Shown: positions 1,290 through 16,596, counted from the first letter of the stretch. The stretch: 64,000 nucleotides of DNA from Streptomyces sp. SM10 (GCF_002910915.1 NZ_NEUF01000186.1:4494-68493), one strand, 5' to 3'. The notes: generated from the letters alone by a model not told the origin. Numbers and translations are program-made.

Positions 1290-3107
1290 CTACTTCGCGC
1301 CCGTGTCCCTGGCCACCGAGTCCTTGGCCTCCGCCTTCTCCTTGGCCGACGCGACGGGCTTGCGGAGCTGGATGTTCAGCTCGCGCAGACGGGTCTCGTC
1401 CAGCTCGCTCGGGGCGCCCATCATCAGGTCCTGGGCGTTGCCGTTGAGCGGGAAGGCGATCGTCTCCCGGATGTTGGGCTCGTCGGCCAGCAGCATGACG
1501 ATGCGGTCGACGCCCGGGGCGATGCCGCCGTGCGGCGGGGCGCCGAGGCGGAACGCGCGCAGCATGCCCGCGAACTCCCTCTCGACGGTCTCCGCCTCGT
1601 AGCCGGCGATCGCGAAGGCCTTCAGCATGACCTCGGGCTCGTGGTTACGGATGGCGCCGGAGGACAGCTCGATGCCGTTGCAGACGATGTCGTACTGCCA
1701 CGCCAGGATGTCGAGCGGGTCCTTCTCCTCCAGGTCCTTCATGCCGCCCTGGGGCATGGAGAAGGGGTTGTGCGAGAAGTCGATCTTCCCGGTGTCCTCG
1801 TCCTTCTCGTACATCGGGAAGTCGACGATCCAGCAGAAACGGAAGACGCCCTCCTCGAAGTGGCCGGCGCGCTTGGCGGCCTCGACGCGGACGACGGACA
1901 TGATCTTGGAAACCTCGTCGAACTCGCCCGCGCCGAAGAAGACGGCGTGGCCGGGAACGAGGGACAGACGCTCGGTGAGGGTCTTGATGTCCGACTCGGT
2001 GAGGAACTTGGCGATCGGGCCCGCCAGCGTGCCGTCCTCGCCGACGCGGACCCAGGCGAGGCCCTTGGCGCCGTGCTCGACCGCGTACGCGCCGAGGCCG
2101 TCGAAGAACTTCCGGGACTGCGCCGCGGTGTCCGGCACCGGAAGCGCACGGACGTGCTTGCCGGCGAAGGCCTTGAACTCCGAGTCCGCGAAGATGTCGG
2201 AGATGTCGACGAGTTCCAGCTGGGCGCGCAGGTCCGGCTTGTCGTTGCCGTACTTCAGCATCGACTCGCGGAACGGGATGCGCGGGAACGGCGAGGTGAC
2301 GTGGCGCCCGTTGCCGAACTCCTCGAAGAGCTCGGTCATGAGCTTCTCGATCGGCTGGAAGACGTCCTCCTGCTCGACGAACGACATCTCGACGTCGAGC
2401 TGGTAGAACTCGCCGGGCGAGCGGTCGGCCCGGGCGTCCTCGTCGCGGAAGCACGGCGCGATCTGGAAGTAGCGGTCGAAGCCGGAGATCATCAGCAGCT
2501 GCTTGAACTGCTGCGGCGCCTGGGGGAGGGCGTAGAACTTGCCCGGGTTCAGACGGGACGGGACCACGAAGTCGCGGGCGCCCTCGGGGGATGTCGCGGC
2601 GAGGATCGGGGTCGCCATCTCGTTGAAGCCGAGGGCCACCATCTTGGAGCGGATGGAGGCGATGACGGACGAGCGCAGCATGATGTTGCGGTGCATGCGC
2701 TCGCGGCGCAGGTCGAGGAAGCGGTACTCCAGGCGCCGCTCCTCGTTGACGCCGTCCTCGGCGTTGATCGTGAAGGGCAGCGGGGCCGCCTCGCCCAGCA
2801 CCTCGACCTCGGTGACCTCGATCTCGATGTCACCGGTCGGGAGCTCCGGGTTGACGTTGTCGGCCCCGCGCGCGGAGACCTTGCCGTCGATCCGGACGAC
2901 CGTCTCCTTGGTCAGCTTCGACAGGGCCTCGTTGCCGGGGGTGCCGGGGCGGGCGACGAGCTGCACCAGACCGTAGTGGTCGCGCAGATCGATGAAGAGG
3001 ATGCCACCCAGGTCTCGGCGATTGTGCAGCCAGCCGCTCAGCCGGACGTCGGTGCCGACGTCAGAGGCGCGGAGCTCGCCGCAGGTGTGGGACCTGTACC
3101 GATGCAT
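1290..3107 (-). CDS. aspS: Aspartyl-tRNA synthetase
   Basis: Class II aminoacyl-tRNA synthetase that charges tRNA-Asp in the cytoplasm, 605 residues, the normal bacterial length with the GAD insertion domain. The N-terminal OB-fold contains [19 protein letters not shown]. Motif 2 is [10 protein letters not shown] around residue 222, and motif 3 ([14 protein letters not shown]) lies near residue 535. The start is the ATG at the anticodon-binding fold with no in-frame alternative that adds family sequence. The C-terminus is a short charged tail. It is transcribed divergently from the SpoIIE phosphatase gene and ends at a strong hairpin. Whether the enzyme is discriminating or also charges tRNA-Asn cannot be decided here. 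Confidence 0.98.
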
Positions 3108-3271
3108 CGTCGTTCATCCAGTCTTCGCGGTCGGGGTGGATTGACACCCCAGGCTACCGCCCGTGGGCGCAGCGTTTCATTGGCATTGTCGCCGCACGGC
3201 CGTACGGGAGCCCGCGGCGTCCGGCCGTCCCTCGGTGGCGACCGAGAAGAACATCTTCCTAAAGTGGGGCA

Positions 3272-5395
3272 ATGCGCACCGAGGAGATCCTGGCTGCGAT
3301 CGGGACCGGCCTGTGGAGCTGGGACAGCTCATCGGGCACGGTCACGCTCGACGCCGAGGCGGCACGCCTGGTGGGACTGCCCGCCGAGCCCACGGCCCGC
3401 CCCGGCGACGAGGTGCGCCCCCGCTTCCACCCGGCCGACTGGAACGAGCTCGACGGCATCGTGAACTTCGCGATCGCCGAGGACACCGTGGCCGAGGCCA
3501 GGATGCGGATCGTGGACGAGCAGGGGGCGGTCGTACGCACGGTGCGCACCCGGTCCAAGCCGGTCCCCCTGGACACCCCGGGCCGCCACACGTACGTGTT
3601 GATGGGCATCCTCCAGGAGGTCGCCGAGCCCCCGGGGGCCACCGCGGCGCAGACCCCCCTCACGGGCGACTGGCGGCGCTCGCGCGAGGCGTTCCTGCTG
3701 GACGCGGGGCGGGCTCTGGCCGAGGCCGGGTCCACCGAGGAGGTGCTTCGGGTCGCCGGGTCGCTCTCCATGCCCGGCTTCTCGCCGGACGGACTCGCCG
3801 TCTTCGGGGTCTCGGGCGAGCGGCTGACGGTCATCGGGCACCACGGGCACAACGTCGACGACGAGAAGCCCTTCACCGACATGCCGCTGGAGACCGACTA
3901 TCCGGCGGCCGAGGTCGTCCGGACCGGTCAGGCGATCTACCTCGAGTCGCCCGAGGAGTACCGGCGGCGCTTCCCTGCCACCTGGCCCCTCGCCGAGGAG
4001 TTCGGGCGCCGGTCGTGGGCCTTCCTGCCGATGATCTCGTCCGGGCACACCATGGGCGCCTGGATGGCCGGGTTCCGGCACACCGTGGCCTTCACGCCGG
4101 ACGAGCGCTCCGTGCTGACGACGGTGGCCAGGATGCTGGCGCAGGCCCTGACGCGCGCGGGGGTCGCCGAGACCGAGCGGGAGCTGTCCCTGGGCCTCCA
4201 GCGGGCCATGAGGCCGTCCCTCGGCCCCGGCGTGCCGGGCATGGAGGTGGCCGCCCGCTACGTCCCGACAGGGGGCGGGCTCCAGGTCGGCGGCGACTGG
4301 TACGACATGATCCCGCTCCCCAACGGACGGATCGCCCTCGTCATCGGTGACGTCCAGGGCCACGACGTGCGGGCAGCCGGGCTGATGGGCCAGCTGAGGA
4401 TCGCCCTGCGCGCGTACGCCGCCGAGGGACACCGCCCCGACGCCGTGCTCTCCCGCGCCTCGCGCTTCCTCTCCGGCCTGACGGAGACCTACGACCTCTC
4501 CGACGGCGAGGACCGGTCCGACGCGACGCGCTTCGCGACCTGTCTGTACGCGGAGGCCGACCCCGAGAACGGCACCCTCGACATCGCCCGGGCCGGCCAC
4601 CCCGACCCGGTGGTGGTCAGTGTCGACGGCACCGCGGTGATCCGGCAGACCGCGGGAGGGCTGCCCCTGGGCGTCGAGAAGGACGCCGACTACCCGACGA
4701 CCCGCGTCGTCCTGGGCCCCGGGGAGACGATCATGCTCTGCACGGACGGCCTCATCGAGACCGGCGGACACGACATGGCCACCGGATGGACCAGGCTCAG
4801 GCCGGTCCTGGAGAAGCCCGTGGAGGATCTGGACGAGCTCGCGGACGCGCTCGTCCAGACCGTGCACGGCCCCGGCTCGCACTACACGACCGGCCCGCTC
4901 GTCGACCGGCGCGAGGACGACATCGCGGTCCTGGTCCTGCGCCGCGAGGGTGCGCGGACGCGCAGGACCCCGGGGCGGCGCTCGGCGATGACCATCGCCC
5001 AGGCGGAACCGGAGCGGGTCGCGGCGGCCCGGCAGCAGCTGCGGGAGCTGCTGCACGACTGGGCGGACACGGAACAGGTCGACGCGGCGGAGCTGATGGT
5101 CTCGGAGATGTCGACCAACGTGCTCGTCCACACGGACGGCGACGCGCTGCTCGTGGCGGAGGTGAAGGGGGAGCGGGGCGAGAGACGGCTGCGGGTCGAG
5201 GTGGCCGACGCCAGCGACGAGCTGCCGCACAAGCGCCGGCCCGGGGAGATGGCGTCCAGCGGCCGGGGTCTGGTGCTCATGGAGATGCTCGCCGACGCGT
5301 GGGGGGTGAGCCCCAGGGGCGAGGGCAAGTCGATCTGGTTCGAGCTGTACGAGTCGGCGGAGCCGGTGGAACTGGGCGCCCTCGCCGGATCATGA
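3272..5395 (+). CDS. PAS/GAF-SpoIIE serine phosphatase with C-terminal ATPase domain
   Basis: Cytosolic regulatory protein of 707 residues with four parts. It has a PAS-like sensor (about 1-110), a GAF-like domain (about 130-290), a SpoIIE-type PP2C phosphatase (about 310-530), and a RsbW-like HATPase domain (about 550-700). The phosphatase has the metal-binding GGDWYD and GDVQGHD motifs. The ATPase has the N-box ELMVSEMSTNVLVHT and a SGRGLVLM G-box. This layout is common in Streptomyces proteins that set the phosphorylation of anti-sigma antagonists by partner switching. No sigma factor or antagonist gene is nearby, so its partners are unknown. The 3' end overlaps the convergent permease gene by six bases. 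The carboxy tail after the ATPase is short. Confidence 0.92.
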   Translation: MRTEEILAAIGTGLWSWDSSSGTVTLDAEAARLVGLPAEPTARPGDEVRPRFHPADWNELDGIVNFAIAEDTVAEARMRIVDEQGAVVRTVRTRSKPVPLDTPGRHTYVLMGILQEVAEPPGATAAQTPLTGDWRRSREAFLLDAGRALAEAGSTEEVLRVAGSLSMPGFSPDGLAVFGVSGERLTVIGHHGHNVDDEKPFTDMPLETDYPAAEVVRTGQAIYLESPEEYRRRFPATWPLAEEFGRRSWAFLPMISSGHTMGAWMAGFRHTVAFTPDERSVLTTVARMLAQALTRAGVAETERELSLGLQRAMRPSLGPGVPGMEVAARYVPTGGGLQVGGDWYDMIPLPNGRIALVIGDVQGHDVRAAGLMGQLRIALRAYAAEGHRPDAVLSRASRFLSGLTETYDLSDGEDRSDATRFATCLYAEADPENGTLDIARAGHPDPVVVSVDGTAVIRQTAGGLPLGVEKDADYPTTRVVLGPGETIMLCTDGLIETGGHDMATGWTRLRPVLEKPVEDLDELADALVQTVHGPGSHYTTGPLVDRREDDIAVLVLRREGARTRRTPGRRSAMTIAQAEPERVAAARQQLRELLHDWADTEQVDAAELMVSEMSTNVLVHTDGDALLVAEVKGERGERRLRVEVADASDELPHKRRPGEMASSGRGLVLMEMLADAWGVSPRGEGKSIWFELYESAEPVELGALAGS

Positions 5396-8478: not shown

Positions 8479-10305
8479 ATGGGGCACTACAAGTCGAATC
8501 TCCGCGACATCGAGTTCAACCTCTTCGAGGTCCTCGGGCGCGACAAGCTGTACGGCACCGGTCCGTTCGCGGAGATGGACGTCGACACCGCGAAGAGCAT
8601 CCTCGACGAGGTCACCCGCCTCGCGGAGAACGAGCTCGCCGACTCGTACGCCGACGCCGACCGCAACCCGCCGGTCTTCGACCCCGAGACGAACACCGCT
8701 CCCGTCCCGGCCTCCTTCAAGAAGTCGTACCAGGCGTTCATGGACTCCGAGTACTGGCGCCTGGGCCTCCCCGAGGAGATCGGCGGCACGACCTCCCCGC
8801 GCTCCCTGATCTGGGGTTACGCGGAGCTCCTGCTCGGCTCCAACCCGGCGGTCTGGATGTACTCCTCCGGCCCCGCGTTCGCCGGCATCCTCTTCGACGA
8901 GGGCAACGAGGCGCAGAAGAAGGTCGCCGAGATCGCCGTCGAGAAGCAGTGGGGCTCGACGATGGTCCTGACCGAGCCGGACGCCGGTTCGGACGTCGGC
9001 GCCGGCCGCACCAAGGCGGTGGAGCAGGAGGACGGCTCCTGGCACATCGAGGGTGTGAAGCGCTTCATCACCTCGGGCGAGCACGACATGTCCGAGAACA
9101 TCCTCCACTACGTCCTGGCGCGTCCCGAGGGCGCGGGCCCGGGCACCAAGGGCCTCTCCCTCTTCCTGGTCCCGAAGTTCCACTTCGACTGGACCACCGG
9201 CGAGCTCGGTGCGCGCAACGGCGTGTACGCGACGAACGTCGAGCACAAGATGGGCCTCAAGGCGTCGAACACCTGCGAGATGACCTTCGGCGACCAGCAC
9301 CCCGCCAAGGGCTGGCTGATCGGTGACAAGCACGACGGCATCCGCCAGATGTTCCGCATCATCGAGTTCGCCCGCATGATGGTCGGCACGAAGGCCATCG
9401 CGGCCCTCTCGGCGGGCTACCTCAACGCGCTGGAGTACGCCAAGGAGCGCGTCCAGGGCACCGACCTGTCGCAGTTCATGGACAAGACGGCCCCCAAGGT
9501 CACCATCACGCACCACCCCGACGTGCGCCGCTCCCTCATGACGCAGAAGGCGTACGCCGAGGGCATGCGCTCCCTCGTCCTGTACACCGCCTCCGTCCAG
9601 GACGCGATCCAGGTGAAGGAGGCCGCGGGCGAGGACTCCAAGGCGCTCAACGGCCTCAACGACCTGCTGCTGCCGATCGTGAAGGGCTACGGCTCCGAGA
9701 AGTCCTACGAGCAGCTCGCGCAGTCGCTCCAGACCTTCGGCGGCTCCGGTTACCTCCAGGAGTACCCGGTCGAGCAGTACATCCGTGACGCCAAGATCGA
9801 CACCCTCTACGAGGGCACGACGGCGATCCAGGGCCAGGACTTCTTCTTCCGGAAGATCGTCCGCGACCAGGGCGCCTCGCTCAACGCCCTCTCCGAGGAG
9901 ATCAAGAAGTTCCTCGCCGGCGCCCAGGACGCCGAGGAGCTGTCCGGCTCGCTGGACAACCTCGCCAAGGCCGCGGTGGACCTGGAGGCGATCGTCGGCA
10001 CGATGATCACCGACCTCACCGCGACCGGCGAGGACGTCAAGAACATCTACAAGGTGGGCCTCAACACCACCCGCCTGCTGATGGCCTCCGGCGATGTCGT
10101 CGTCGGCTACCTGCTGCTCAAGGGCGCGGTCGTCGCCTCCGAGAAGCTGCGCAACGCCTCGCCCAGGGACGTCGCCTTCTACCAGGGCAAGATCGCCGCG
10201 GCGAAGTTCTTCGCCGCGAACGTCCTGCCCGGCGTCTCCGCCGAGCGTGCGCTCGCCGAGACCGTCGACAACGGGCTGATGGAGCTGGACGAGGCCGCCT
10301 TCTAG
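8479..10305 (+). CDS. Acyl-CoA dehydrogenase
   Basis: FAD-dependent acyl-CoA dehydrogenase of 608 residues, the long form with an extra C-terminal helical domain after the normal fold. It introduces the first double bond in fatty or branched acyl-CoA breakdown. The flavin and substrate region includes [17 protein letters not shown] (about residue 160). The likely catalytic glutamate lies in [12 protein letters not shown] (about residue 447). The ATG start follows a GGAG at suitable distance. It appears monocistronic with a terminator after it. Codon use is strongly biased to C-ending codons, as in highly expressed genes. The acyl chain preferred is not visible from sequence. Confidence 0.95.
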
Positions 10306-10328
10306 CCGCCCCGCCCCCTCCGACCACC

Positions 10329-12215: not shown

Positions 12216-14066
12216 TCAGCCCTGCTCGTCCATCCCGGCCAGCACCAGCGGGAGCCTGGACGCCCCCGCCGCGGTGACGGTGACGGGAACGCCCCAGTCC
12301 TGCTGGTGCACATGGCAGGCCGGGTACTCGTTCGCCGGGTCGTCGTCGCAGGACGCCGCCATCGCGGACACGTGCAGCACGCCCTCGGTGTGCCCGTCCG
12401 CGAGGACCAGGCCGCGGCTCAGGTCCGTACCCGGGCCGGCCCCCTCGGCCAGCAGCTCCGGCGGGGTCGAGGAGACGAGCAGCCGGGTCGAGGGGCCGTA
12501 GCGCGTGTCCAGCTTCTGGCCGGCGGGCGCCTGGAAGACCACGTCCAGGCGCAGCGTCCCGGGGGCCACCTCGGTGGCCGCCCGCCGGGTGCGGTGGGCC
12601 CGGTCCGCGACGCGCACGGCCTCCTCGGGAAGCCGCAGCCGGGTCAGCCGGTGCCGTGCGGACTCGACGACCACCAGATCGCCGTCCACCAGCACCGCGT
12701 CGCTCGGCTCCCTCAGATCGGTGGCCAGCGTCGTGACCTCGCCGCTCTCCGGGTCGAAGCGCCGCAGGGCGTGGTTGTAGGTGTCGCTGACGGCGACGGA
12801 GCCGTCCGGGAGGGCGGTGACGCCCAGCGGGTGCTGGAGCAGCGCCTGGCCGGCCGGGCCGTCACGGTGACCGAAGTCGAAGAGGCCGGTACCGACGGCG
12901 GTGTGGACGGCGCCTTCCGGATCCACCCAGCGCAGCGCGGAGGTCTCCGAGTCGGCGACCCAGAGGCGGTCGCCGGCCGCGGCCAGGCCGGAGGGCTGCG
13001 CGAACCATGCCTCGCCGCCGGGCCCGTCGACCAGGCCCTCGTTGGTCGTCCCCGCGGCCACCCCCACCATGTCCTGCCCGGGGTCGTACGTCCACAGCTG
13101 GTGCACGCCGGCCATCGCGATCCACAGCCGGTCGCCGAACCAGGCGATGTCCCACGGCGACGACAGGTCCACCTCCGTGGCGGGACCGCTCGTGGCGGAG
13201 CCCTGCCACCACTGGCGGCCGGTCCCGGCGAGCGTGGTCGTCACCCCCGTCGCGGGGTCGAGCGCCCTGATCGCGTGATTGACCGTGTCGGCGACGGCGA
13301 TCCGGCCGTCGGGCAGGAAGGCAAGGCCCTGCGGCTCGCTGAACCGGGCCTCGTCGGGGCCGCCGTCCGCGAATCCGCGCTCACCGGCACCGAAGTGACC
13401 CCGCACGGTCTCGCCGTCGGCGTCGAGCTCGACCAGGCGGTGGCGGGTGGTGTCCGAGACCAGGAAGCCGCCGTCGGGCAGGACGAGCGCCTTGCCGGGG
13501 AAACGCAGATGCGTGGCGACCGGCTCCGGGGCGACGTACGGACCGTCGCCACGGCGCAGGGTGCCCTTCGCGGCGTGCTCGGTCTCCAGCTCCTCGACCA
13601 GCTTCCCGATCGCGTGGGCGTGCCCCTCGCCGGCGTGCTGGGCGACGACGTACCCCTCGGGGTCCACGACGACGAGCGTGGGCCAGGCCCGGACGGCGTA
13701 CTGCTTCCAGGTGGCGAGCTCGGGATCGTCGAGAACCGGGTGGTGCACCTCGTACCGCTCGACGGCGTCGACCACGGCCTGGTGCTCCGCCTCGTGCACG
13801 AACTTCGGCGAGTGGACACCGATGATCACCACGGTGTCGCGGTGCTTTTCCTCCAGCTCACGCAGCTCATCGAGCACATGCAGACAGTTCACACAGCAGA
13901 ACGTCCAGAAATCCACAACAACGCACTTACCCCGCAGGTCAGCGAGGGTGAGATCTTTCCCGCCGGTGTTCAGCCAACCACCCTTGCCGATCAGCTCGGG
14001 GGCACGGACACGGGCACGCTTGCGGGGTGCGGGCGCGGGGGTGGGCGCCGGGGCAGCATCGTTCAT
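12216..14066 (-). CDS. Thioredoxin-fold / NHL-repeat protein with substituted 5' end
   Basis: Protein of 616 residues. An N-terminal thioredoxin/TlpA-like domain (about 25-165) has the redox motif CCVNC near residue 55. An NHL beta-propeller (about 180-490) and a C-terminal domain of about 110 residues follow. No export signal is visible, so it is probably cytosolic; the role is unknown, perhaps thiol-disulfide chemistry. The first 50 or so codons were apparently brought in by an integrative element. The likely original start (15926-16037) is stranded beyond the element and joins this body in frame at the shared bases 13906-13915. The junction keeps the CxxC motif intact, so the gene probably still works. 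Confidence 0.92.
   Translation of the reverse strand: MNDAAPAPTPAPAPRKRARVRAPELIGKGGWLNTGGKDLTLADLRGKCVVVDFWTFCCVNCLHVLDELRELEEKHRDTVVIIGVHSPKFVHEAEHQAVVDAVERYEVHHPVLDDPELATWKQYAVRAWPTLVVVDPEGYVVAQHAGEGHAHAIGKLVEELETEHAAKGTLRRGDGPYVAPEPVATHLRFPGKALVLPDGGFLVSDTTRHRLVELDADGETVRGHFGAGERGFADGGPDEARFSEPQGLAFLPDGRIAVADTVNHAIRALDPATGVTTTLAGTGRQWWQGSATSGPATEVDLSSPWDIAWFGDRLWIAMAGVHQLWTYDPGQDMVGVAAGTTNEGLVDGPGGEAWFAQPSGLAAAGDRLWVADSETSALRWVDPEGAVHTAVGTGLFDFGHRDGPAGQALLQHPLGVTALPDGSVAVSDTYNHALRRFDPESGEVTTLATDLREPSDAVLVDGDLVVVESARHRLTRLRLPEEAVRVADRAHRTRRAATEVAPGTLRLDVVFQAPAGQKLDTRYGPSTRLLVSSTPPELLAEGAGPGTDLSRGLVLADGHTEGVLHVSAMAASCDDDPANEYPACHVHQQDWGVPVTVTAAGASRLPLVLAGMDEQG
13906..13915. repeat. attL: Left attachment-site core of the decayed element
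   Basis: The 10 bases CAGAAATCCA recur exactly at 15916-15925. They mark where the body of the NHL gene meets element-borne sequence. The two copies head a pair of ungapped 113-base repeats (13906-14018 and 15916-16028), about 73 percent identical by eye. Confidence 0.75.
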
Positions 14067-14140
14067 CCTTCAAGCTTGCCATCCTGGTATGAACGTCGGA
14101 TCACACGCGTTCGGCAGGACCTACGACAGGGGAGCGAAGG

Positions 14141-14374
14141 TTGGCTACGGACGAGGGCGAGACGACTGCCGGCGAGACGGCGCGGACGGTGCAGGGGCTC
14201 ATGGCGCTGCCGGGGCGGGTGGAGGGCCGTAGGGAGGTGTTCGCCGGATGCGTGGCGGAGGTCGTCCGGGTCCTCGGGCTCGATGTCGTTCACAAGGACG
14301 CGGCCGTGGCGATAGCCCGGTCCCATCCGGACGAGTACATCCGCCACCGCGTGGAACACCAGGTCGGTGACTGA
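14141..14374 (+). CDS. Small protein of the decayed element, function unknown
   Basis: Possible 77-residue acidic protein starting at a TTG with an AGGGGAGCGAAGG-like ribosome-binding stretch just upstream. Third-position G+C is high, supporting coding. I recognise no domain. It lies inside the element, reads away from the NHL gene, and its stop is five bases from the convergent DUF7848-like frame. It may be a truncated remnant, since the element around it has lost sequence. Confidence 0.45.
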   Translation: MATDEGETTAGETARTVQGLMALPGRVEGRREVFAGCVAEVVRVLGLDVVHKDAAVAIARSHPDEYIRHRVEHQVGD

Positions 14375-14379
14375 CACCC

Positions 14380-14565
14380 TCACTGGGCGCGCTCGACCAC
14401 GGCGACTTCCGAGAACTCGCGCAGGAAGGTCATGTGCCCGGTCCGGCCCGTGTGCCCGATGCACATGTCCGTGCACACGTCCGCGTCCCCGGTCGGTGCG
14501 GCAGTCCACTGGCAGTCCGGGTTCAACGTCGGCAGTCCAAAAACGGAGCCGCACCCAGGGCGCAT
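14380..14565 (-). CDS. DUF7848-like small Cys/His protein
   Basis: Frame of 61 residues with spaced cysteines (DCQW, CTDMC) and the run GHTGRTGHMTFLREF followed by a short VAVVER tail. This resembles the DUF7848 small proteins common in Streptomyces mobile elements and next to whi/bld-type regulators. The N-terminus is poorly defined, without a clear ribosome-binding site, and may be truncated. The Cys/His spacing suggests metal binding, but no function is established. Confidence 0.5.
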   Translation of the reverse strand: MRPGCGSVFGLPTLNPDCQWTAAPTGDADVCTDMCIGHTGRTGHMTFLREFSEVAVVERAQ

Positions 14566-14623
14566 TTTCCGAGCTGGGGCCGGGGTCGCGGTGAGGGCTG
14601 CGCCTGAACTTTGGACTTCCCGG

Positions 14624-14727
14624 GTGACGAAGTGACGGAATGACGATTAGTTCTGATCCACTCATGGAAACAACAACACTTCTATGAGGGGTAACCGGGG
14701 GAGAGCGTCATTTCGTCACTTCGTCAC
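14624..14727. repeat. 22-bp inverted repeat with 8-bp iterations
   Basis: Arms at 14624-14645 and 14706-14727 match at 21 of 22 positions across a 60-base spacer. The right arm contains three head-to-tail copies of an 8-base CGTCAYTT-like unit. A second 9-bp inverted pair (ggggtaacc at 14688-14696, ggttacccc at 14754-14762) interleaves with it. It lies past the 3' end of the integrase gene and may be an operator, an origin or transfer relic, or a terminator. Confidence 0.7.
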
Positions 14728-14767
14728 GCGTGTCCGCTGCCGACAGCTGGAAGGGTTACCCCGGTGC

Positions 14768-15872
14768 TCAGGCGGCGCTGTCGGTTCCCAGCTTCGCCCA
14801 ATGAATCTGGATGCGTTGCTCAGGGATGATCCGCTGTCCGCGCACTCCCTTGGTCACTTCAACCCTGTCTATGGCGAGTGACAACCGGCCGCGCCGATCT
14901 TCGTTCGTCGCCTCGGTCCACGCCTCACGCAGGATGAGGCCGTCAAGCATCGGTGACACGTCCACGGACGGCATGGGGAGCGGCCGCCGCTTTCCTGCGT
15001 GTACGAACGTCCTGGATTCCAAGGTGCGGATGATCTGTTCACGCTCTCCGACGGTGATGATCCCCTCGCCGATCTCGACGGTGTCCAGAGTCTCGGGATC
15101 GCGGTACGGGAAGACCCTGCCCGTGTACTTCCGCTCGCCGTCGTCCGTCTCGACGGTCTCGGTCTCCGGCATCAGGCCGGCGAGCGCAGGAGAGCGCAGG
15201 AGCTGCACGATGCTGGCCGCGTTCCACTGCCCGCCCCTGGGCGAAAGGACCTCGTACTCGTTGAGAAGTCGGGCGATCTTGACCAGCGAAGTCCCGGCGA
15301 GCGCTTCATCCGCGATGAGACGGGCGTAGACGGCGTGCTCCGGGTCATGGACGAGCTTCTTGGTCTGCGGGTCGATGAGCAGCCCGTACGGAGGCTGCCC
15401 GCCGATCCACTGGCCCTTGCTGCGTAGGTAGCGCTTGGCATGGCCGACGCGTGTGCCGAGATTCTTCGACTCGGATCGGGCGAGTTCGGCGAGCATAGCC
15501 ACGACCATGCGCGCCGAGTCGTTCGAAGTGTCGAGACCGTCAACCACCGAGACGAGACGGCCGCCGGCCTTCTCGATGTCGTCCAGCACTTTGCCGACCT
15601 GGCCGATGCCCTTGCGGGACAGGCGGTCCAGTTTCCAGACGATCAGCGTGCCCACGACGCCCGCCGTGACGGCCGCCAGCGCGGCGTCGAAGCCTTTGCG
15701 CTCAACGGTCTTGTAGCCGGAGCGCCCTCTGTCTATGTGGACCTTGCGGACGGTCAGTCCGTTGCGTTCGGCCCAGGCACGGCAGTCGGCTTCCTGCCGT
15801 TCGATTGCGGTCTTGTCCGTCCCGGTCAAGAGACAGGCGGAGGTATAGGTCACAGATCGCGTCTTGGTACAC
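14768..15872 (-). pseudogene. int: Serine integrase, frameshifted and internally deleted
   Basis: Site-specific serine recombinase remnant. From the GTG at 15872 one frame encodes a good resolvase N-terminus (LYLRLSLDRDG) with the catalytic arginine and serine. An extra base at about 15815-15818 then shifts the sequence, and the rest of the domain continues in another frame (DKTAIERQ, IVWKLDRLSR, RMVVAMLAELARSES). In the longer open frame the catalytic serine reads as cysteine in YTSAC, which is best explained by the shift. Further on, the recombinase domain passes almost directly from MLDGLI to LREAWTEA. The zinc ribbon and coiled coil normal for large serine integrases are therefore missing. 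The enzyme should be inactive. Confidence 0.85.
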
Positions 15873-15914
15873 ACACTGAGTTTGACGAAGAGTTCGGTGG
15901 TTCGTTGTCGATTT

Positions 15915-16037
15915 TCAGAAATCCAGGATGACAATGCGTCCCGGCAGGTCAGCAACGGTGTACTGCCGGTCGCCTGTATTGAGCCAGCCGCCCTTGCCGA
16001 TCAGTTCGGGGGCGCGGACACGTGCACGTGCTGTCAT
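15915..16037 (-). pseudogene. Stranded original 5' end of the NHL/thioredoxin gene
   Basis: A 40-codon fragment starting ATG at 16037. Its RARVRAPELIGKGGWLNTG is identical to the start of the intact protein, and the following stretch then diverges (TVADLPGRIVILDF). At the att core it runs into a stop within element sequence. Joined at the shared 10 bases to the gene body, it would read on in frame into WTFCCVNC. I therefore take it as the pre-insertion start. Confidence 0.85.
15916..15925. repeat. attR: Right attachment-site core of the decayed element
   Basis: Exact second copy of the 10-base CAGAAATCCA found at 13906-13915, at the junction of element sequence with the stranded 5' fragment of the NHL gene. 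Confidence 0.75.
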
Positions 16038-16101: not shown

Positions 16102-16596
16102 ATGAGACTTCTCGTACGTGAGCGGCTGCTCGGCATCGGCGACGACTACTGGATCGAGGACGCGGACGGGCACAAGCTCTTCCTCGTCGACGGCAAGGCC
16201 ATGCGCGTCCGCGACACCTTCGAGTTGAAGGACACGGACGGCCGGGTGCTGGTGGAGATCCGCCAGAAGCTGATCAGCCTGCGCGACACCATGCTGATCG
16301 AGCGGAACGGCGAGGAGCTCGCCAAGGTCAAGAAGAAGCGGCTCTCGCTCCTGCGCAACCACTACCGGGTGACCCTGGTGGACGGCACCGAGCTGGACGT
16401 CAGCGGCAAGATCCTGGACCGCGAATTCGCCATCGACTACGACGGCGAGCTCCTGGCACAGATCTCCCGGCGCTGGCTGAGCGTCCGCGACACCTACGGC
16501 GTCGACATCGTCAGGGAGGACGCCGACGTACCCCTGCTCATCGCGGTGGCCGTGGGCGTGATCGCCCTGGGGGACAAGGAGCACGGGGACGACTGA
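16102..16596 (+). CDS. LURP-one-related (tubby/scramblase-fold) protein
   Basis: Cytosolic protein of 164 residues made almost wholly of repeated beta-hairpin units (DADGHKLFLVDGKAMRV, DTDGRVLVEIRQKLI, NGEELAKVKKKRL). This is typical of the LURP-one-related family, whose fold resembles tubby C-terminal and phospholipid scramblase domains. The C-terminus has a short hydrophobic segment (PLLIAVAVGVIAL). Function in bacteria is not known; membrane or lipid association is an inference from the fold. It begins about 65 bases beyond the displaced NHL gene start, so the element has separated this gene from its former divergent neighbour only slightly. It converges on the nitrilase gene across a parS-bearing palindrome. 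Confidence 0.87.
   Translation: MRLLVRERLLGIGDDYWIEDADGHKLFLVDGKAMRVRDTFELKDTDGRVLVEIRQKLISLRDTMLIERNGEELAKVKKKRLSLLRNHYRVTLVDGTELDVSGKILDREFAIDYDGELLAQISRRWLSVRDTYGVDIVREDADVPLLIAVAVGVIALGDKEHGDD

Follow-up and report, generated by a model that had tools for sequence, protein, structure and literature searches.

The thioredoxin-like/NHL-repeat gene at 12216-14066 (minus strand) of this Streptomyces sp. SM10 DNA has an intact reading frame, and a second, diverged copy of its 5' end lies stranded upstream, beyond intervening DNA. How did one gene come to have two 5' ends, and which of them is native? The window analysed here, the whole stretch of 64,000 nucleotides, was compared with 100 relatives and then with 296 genomes of the genus. 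The reading favoured by these comparisons, with a probability of about 0.94, is that an element carrying a serine integrase integrated in the gene and swapped its 5' end for a homologous one borne by the element.

The core CAGAAATCCA is present twice in the window (Table 1), at both of the coordinates that had been given in an earlier, sequence-only reading. The copies of 113 bases that start at the cores had been matched by eye at about 82 positions; exactly 82/113 were found to be identical without gaps, against 53/113 for the runner-up among ungapped matches to the 113-mer over the whole 64 kb, both strands included. At the protein level the stranded and attached N-termini matched with E = 1e-14. 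The stranded copy reads MTARARVRAPELIGKGGWLNTGDRQYTVADLPGRIVILDF, followed by a TGA stop codon that the junction creates. Joined at the core, it runs in frame into the WTFCC of the gene body, as the sequence-only reading had also stated, and the same join is seen in relatives.

Table 1 Features of the thioredoxin/NHL locus, in window coordinates.
Feature	Position	Strand	Basis or remark
Native gene body, from the WTFCCVNC active-site motif to the stop	12216..13907	-	Pfam Thioredoxin_8/AhpC-TSA and NHL
Core copy at the gene body	13906..13915	-	Predicted crossover dinucleotide TG at 13906-13907
Attached 5' coding end, read as element-supplied, MNDAAPAP...KDLTLADLRGKCVVVDF	13908..14066	-	Pattern of DNA identity to G262, G290, G012 and G052
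Upstream region, read as element-supplied, with a conserved TGGCAAGCTTGAAG motif before the ATG	14067..14110	-	Conserved with other carriers of this N-terminus
Divergent cargo-gene remnant, TTG start, most of the middle deleted	14142..14377	+	Both ends match the G262 ORF (~276 aa, no Pfam match)
Decayed large serine integrase	14768..15872	-	PF00239 and PF07508; alignment with intact relatives of 505-513 aa
Core copy on the stranded side	15916..15925	-	Predicted crossover TG at 15916-15917
Native 5' end of the gene, stranded	15918..16037	-	96.6% DNA identity to the attached N-terminus of empty-site G052 and G111
Flanking LURP-one-related (LOR) gene, marking the empty-site arrangement	16102..16596	+	PF04525

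The gene is uninterrupted in 27 related species, where an N-terminus of the stranded type is joined to WTFCC, the arrangement that had been proposed as a check on the exchange. In these species 185 bp separate the end of the divergent LOR gene from the core. The same interval measures 2,195 bp in the window, longer by 2,010 bp, which is also the distance from one core to the other. The insert is put at 2,010 bp because the crossover most likely fell at the TG of the Trp codon on either side (numbered on the + strand in Table 1). Besides the two closest matches listed in the table, the stranded copy is 95.7% and 94.9% identical to the attached N-termini of the empty-site relatives G271 and G029, and the N-terminus now attached in the window is about 70% identical to those of the nearest empty-site relatives (70% for G052). 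The gene body is 94-95% identical at the amino acid level to empty-site relatives G052, G029 and G053, and the differences between the window gene and that of G052 fall mainly at third codon positions (13, 15 and 86 at positions 1, 2 and 3). No close element-free relative carries the current N-terminus.

Over the attached 117 bp, identity is 98.3% to G262, 90.6% to G012 and G290, and 88.0% to G212, four genomes whose gene bodies are 78-82% identical to that of the window. When identity was followed in 30-bp steps, it ranged from about 0.2 to 0.8 upstream of the core and from 0.9 to 1.0 downstream of it for G052; for G262 it was 0.9-1.0 upstream and 0.80-0.83 just downstream. Two homologous 5' ends in the same orientation would also result if the native 5' end had been duplicated in tandem, the copies had diverged and unrelated DNA had later entered between them, but this is hardly credible here: it is contradicted by an attached copy that is 98% identical to G262 and 68% identical to the stranded copy, and that is far less similar to the close relatives as well.

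Homologous recombination or gene conversion from another Streptomyces might instead have replaced the 5' end, the integrase lying nearby by coincidence. The two ends are homologous, some carriers of the current N-terminus have no detected integrase, and 16 of 63 sampled genes, about a quarter, have an N-terminus that does not resemble that of the gene with the nearest body, so other routes of exchange may operate as well. However, this explanation is very unlikely. Gene conversion would not place exactly 2,010 bp of DNA with an integrase between the body and a stranded native end, the switch in sequence is abrupt and falls at the centre of a symmetric att site common to dozens of elements, and similarity of the N-terminus tracks the integrase. 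The new 5' end occurs in other genomes with and without an integrase. G290 has a 4,455-bp insert with an intact integrase and both 5' ends; in G262 and others the new 5' end is kept and the integrase is undetectable. A 27-base signature, consisting of the attP arm joined to TGG, was found in 13 of the 296 genus genomes, six of which gave no match to the family integrase. Carriers of the new end with no detectable integrase are likely to be fossils of past integration. The proposal that an inserted element had brought a substitute 5' end is thus supported by the empty-site spacing, the identities of the N-termini and the decayed serine integrase, and the N-terminus that had been described as different yet compatible proves to be a homologous end travelling with the element family.

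The insert between the copies encodes a large serine integrase in which the Resolvase (PF00239) and Recombinase (PF07508) domains are recognised. A Resolvase catalytic domain with a YxRxS nucleophile motif, a Recombinase domain and a zinc-ribbon/coiled-coil C-terminus, which define large serine integrases, are found in the family and in its intact members of 505-513 aa, where the motif reads YLRLS. The window copy is classified as a pseudogene of this family because it is frameshifted after YLRLSLDRDG and has lost roughly 120 aa: a +1 frameshift near 15815 splits the catalytic motif from the remainder, and an in-frame deletion near 14983 removes part of the zinc-ribbon/coiled-coil region. Since the genome is a draft, the single-base frameshift, though not the deletions, could reflect an error in sequencing. 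The expected start of the integrase frame is the GTG at 15872; the start of the listed ORF 14768-15955, which falls inside the stranded stub, is artefactual. A reading with cysteine replacing the catalytic serine (YTSACLLTG), which would make the enzyme a variant recombinase, was also considered and dropped, as the adjacent frame encodes a normal YLRLSLDRDG. The window insert has no RDF, Rep or Tra gene left; with these gone, and with the integrase frame and an internal part of the protein lost, excision is unlikely and the 5'-end exchange in the window is probably fixed. Downstream of the integrase, and still inside the insert, lies a 25-bp inverted repeat (14621-14645 and 14706-14730, 92% complementary, 60 bp apart).

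The cargo-gene remnant has a longer counterpart in G262 (L094), a divergent ORF of ~276 aa, without a Pfam match, at -950 to -120 from the core. This ORF, or DNA resembling its ends, also adjoins the substituted 5' end in G030, G034, G168, G257 and G298, and some of the species that have it, or its ends, have no integrase left. Beside a substituted 5' end it is perhaps domesticated cargo.

For analysis of the attachment sites, attP was formed in silico by joining the element ends and attB by joining the host ends, with the stranded ends picked by similarity. Symmetry of attP was maximal at the TG of the TGG codon, at 11.0 of 18 pairs against about 4.8 elsewhere (13/18 in the window). Symmetry of attB also peaked at this TG, its value of 6.85 barely exceeding a second peak of 6.78 at offset -8. 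This symmetry puts the predicted crossover, most likely, at the TG of a Trp codon next to the thioredoxin active site. Recombination at this point keeps the reading frame and the conserved motif, because the codon pair Phe-Trp (TTC-TGG) directly precedes the active-site cysteines (WTFCCVNC).

In the proposed mechanism, the element, one of an actinomycete family that carries a large serine integrase, would have integrated at these TTC-TGG codons. Its attP would sit at the 3' end of the element's own homologous gene front, comprising about 160 bp of coding sequence and upstream DNA, and integration would join this substitute end in frame to the host body. The native end would be left on the other side, meeting an immediate stop, with int following about 45 bp on in the same strand.

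Integrases of this family were identified at 41 named loci (L154-L194) in Streptomyces, Kitasatospora, Streptacidiphilus, Streptantibioticus, Actinacidiphila, Actinospica and Micromonospora. All 41 lie at the thioredoxin/NHL gene; the body was present in the fetched flank at 35 loci and further along the same contig at three, and at three a contig break leaves an N-terminal stub just upstream of int. Most named loci have a second N-terminus 39-62 bp upstream of int. Nearly the same element, at about 96% DNA identity, occurs in the different hosts G044, G264 and G188. Across the 27 elements with both ends, integrase distance correlated with distance between attached N-termini after body distance was removed (r = 0.55, p = 0.0007), and r was 0.60 and 0.80 in narrower sets, the latter a 17-member subset. 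The correlation with distance between stranded N-termini was about 0. Integrase distance also correlated with body distance (r about 0.5-0.6), as is expected if transfer occurs mostly between related hosts. The integrase tracks the attached and not the stranded N-terminus, indicating that the 5' end travels with the element. Judged by these distances, the start of the gene is inherited with the element and not with the host, and exchange of the front is recurrent and family-wide. Comparison of sequences thus establishes insertion, exchange, recurrence and decay.

Several loci carry further recombination features. The elements at L031, L051, L174 and L164 encode an extra small serine recombinase of about 190 aa, resolvase/invertase-like by eye. 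At L159 (Streptomyces sp. H27-S2) the stranded stub upstream of int terminates with GGTAAGTGCGGTGTTGTAGATTTC. This is the attP arm belonging to the other integrase clade and suggests that a second element inserted in a gene that had already been exchanged.

The frame of the stranded end is closed by a stop codon within 7 codons in 26 of the 27 elements; where the int start is complete, it follows the core by 39-62 bp, and int has the same orientation. From this arrangement we infer that host and element swap start regions, int being expressed from the stranded host promoter. The 44 nucleotides upstream of the window gene listed in Table 1 are presumed to be the promoter/start region of a hybrid gene expressed from element DNA, and the window protein is likely to be expressed from this element-supplied upstream DNA. 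No match to a sigma-70-type promoter consensus was found in the element-carried 5' region of the window gene; Streptomyces promoters often have no such consensus. A broader proposal is that the gene 5' end is a mobile, exchangeable cassette across actinomycetes, each round of exchange swapping promoters, with the carried start passing to the gene and the stranded start to int, and rounds stacking as at L159; this is about as likely as not. In an excised circle, the carried start region would take the same position upstream of int. If this is correct, the start region of the gene evolves as part of the element's own regulation.

The largest relative, L240 of Streptacidiphilus melanogenes, has 17.1 kb between the same two cores. 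It encodes an integrase, a Gp3-like RDF (PF18897), RepSA (PF20199) and an FtsK/SpoIIIE translocase, as well as a DUF2637 protein, a GntR regulator and a NUDIX protein, and so combines integrase, Rep and FtsK-type Tra, the AICE gene set, in one att-bounded unit. In the window insert only the integrase and a cargo fragment remain, and many other copies are likewise reduced to integrase and cargo fragments. Because rep and tra are absent, the window insert is named a decayed member of an integrase family used by AICEs, and not an AICE. The element family is inferred to have had conjugative mobility ancestrally. L240 also carries, at 2470-4508 and 9131-10315, a strong match to the candidate defence protein RmrA (E 1e-106) and a weak match to RmrT, together with a methyltransferase-like protein.

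None of the genes left in the window insert can tell a conjugative from a prophage origin, and the second was weighed on evidence from relatives. Streptomyces and Arthrobacter phages encode distant relatives of the integrase, with only about 30% identity in the phage collection, too far removed for these phages to be accepted as the source of the integrase. The closest on the phage side is 48% identical and is encoded on a 40-kb viral contig (L196; IMG/VR, 39,992 bp), which has no copy of the N-terminus of the thioredoxin/NHL gene; the attachment gene of L196 is not visible, because the integrase lies at the very end of the contig. A search of the plasmid collection with the integrase gave no match. 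Against a decayed prophage, the largest complete same-site relative has the AICE set described above, and the proteins examined included none that could be recognised as a phage structural protein. A prophage is therefore considered improbable, and a decayed conjugative element is preferred.

Exchange of this kind explains why the front of the gene and the remainder have different histories, which would mislead both phylogenies and start-site annotation. Sets of intact integrase, RDF and att sites with a predicted crossover are also potential integration tools for Streptomyces.

Systems of the phiC31/phiBT1 type combine a large serine integrase, a Gp3-like RDF and att sites symmetric around a 2-bp crossover, and phage integration systems usually disrupt the target gene rather than rebuild it. 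The element family resembles these phages in the RDF family PF18897, present in L240, and in its symmetric att sites; the phage integrases found are only about 30% identical to its own. L240 matches the make-up of AICEs as given in PMC3218068; an AICE combines a site-specific integrase, a Rep (RepSA, RepAM or Prim-Pol) and an FtsK-type Tra. Of 144 AICEs a minority, 19, use a serine integrase, the Frankia example treated in that paper disrupts its target, and its text makes no mention of a thioredoxin or NHL target (PMC3218068). L240 shares with AICEs a serine integrase, RepSA, an FtsK-type translocase, a GntR regulator and a site in a protein-coding gene, whereas the window insert differs from them in having neither rep nor tra.

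Replacement of a gene 5' end is known from elements of another kind: the integrases of the dusA-specific elements and of the ICE SXT are tyrosine recombinases. The dusA elements, for example IMEVchUSA3, provide the host gene with a new 5' end and a promoter, the latter demonstrated by lacZ fusion (PMC8409611). Like the window insert, they lie within the 5' end of a housekeeping gene, supply new upstream DNA together with an N-terminus that has diverged yet remains compatible, and keep the frame; unlike it, they belong to gammaproteobacteria, and no serine recombinase is mentioned in that paper (PMC8409611). SXT, according to the papers that cite its original description, inserts at the 5' end of prfC and provides a new promoter and N-terminus (Hochhut and Waldor 1999, cited in PMC8409611 and PMC3715440). 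SXT shares with the window insert a 5'-end insertion with a new N-terminus, but is a large T4SS-type ICE in a different gene and phylum.

The sequence-only reading had suggested that gene-end exchange by a serine-integrase element is seldom described. A literature search, with most subscription journals outside it, returned no description of this target gene or of 5'-end replacement by a serine integrase, and the recurrent, serine-integrase form appears to be undescribed in the literature searched. The suggestion holds for that form and not for the general idea of an element-supplied 5' end, which is known because it has been described for the tyrosine-integrase elements at dusA and prfC. With such elements the window insert shares insertion in the 5' part of a gene and an element-supplied, in-frame N-terminus. 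Its family provides dozens of natural replicates in which serine-integrase elements rebuild, and do not break, a coding target by means of a homologous 5' end. In SCCmec at rlmH, large serine recombinases also integrate in a coding gene that stays readable; SCCmec exchanges the 3' end and leaves the native promoter in place, whereas in the window the 5' end is replaced and the start region changes with it.
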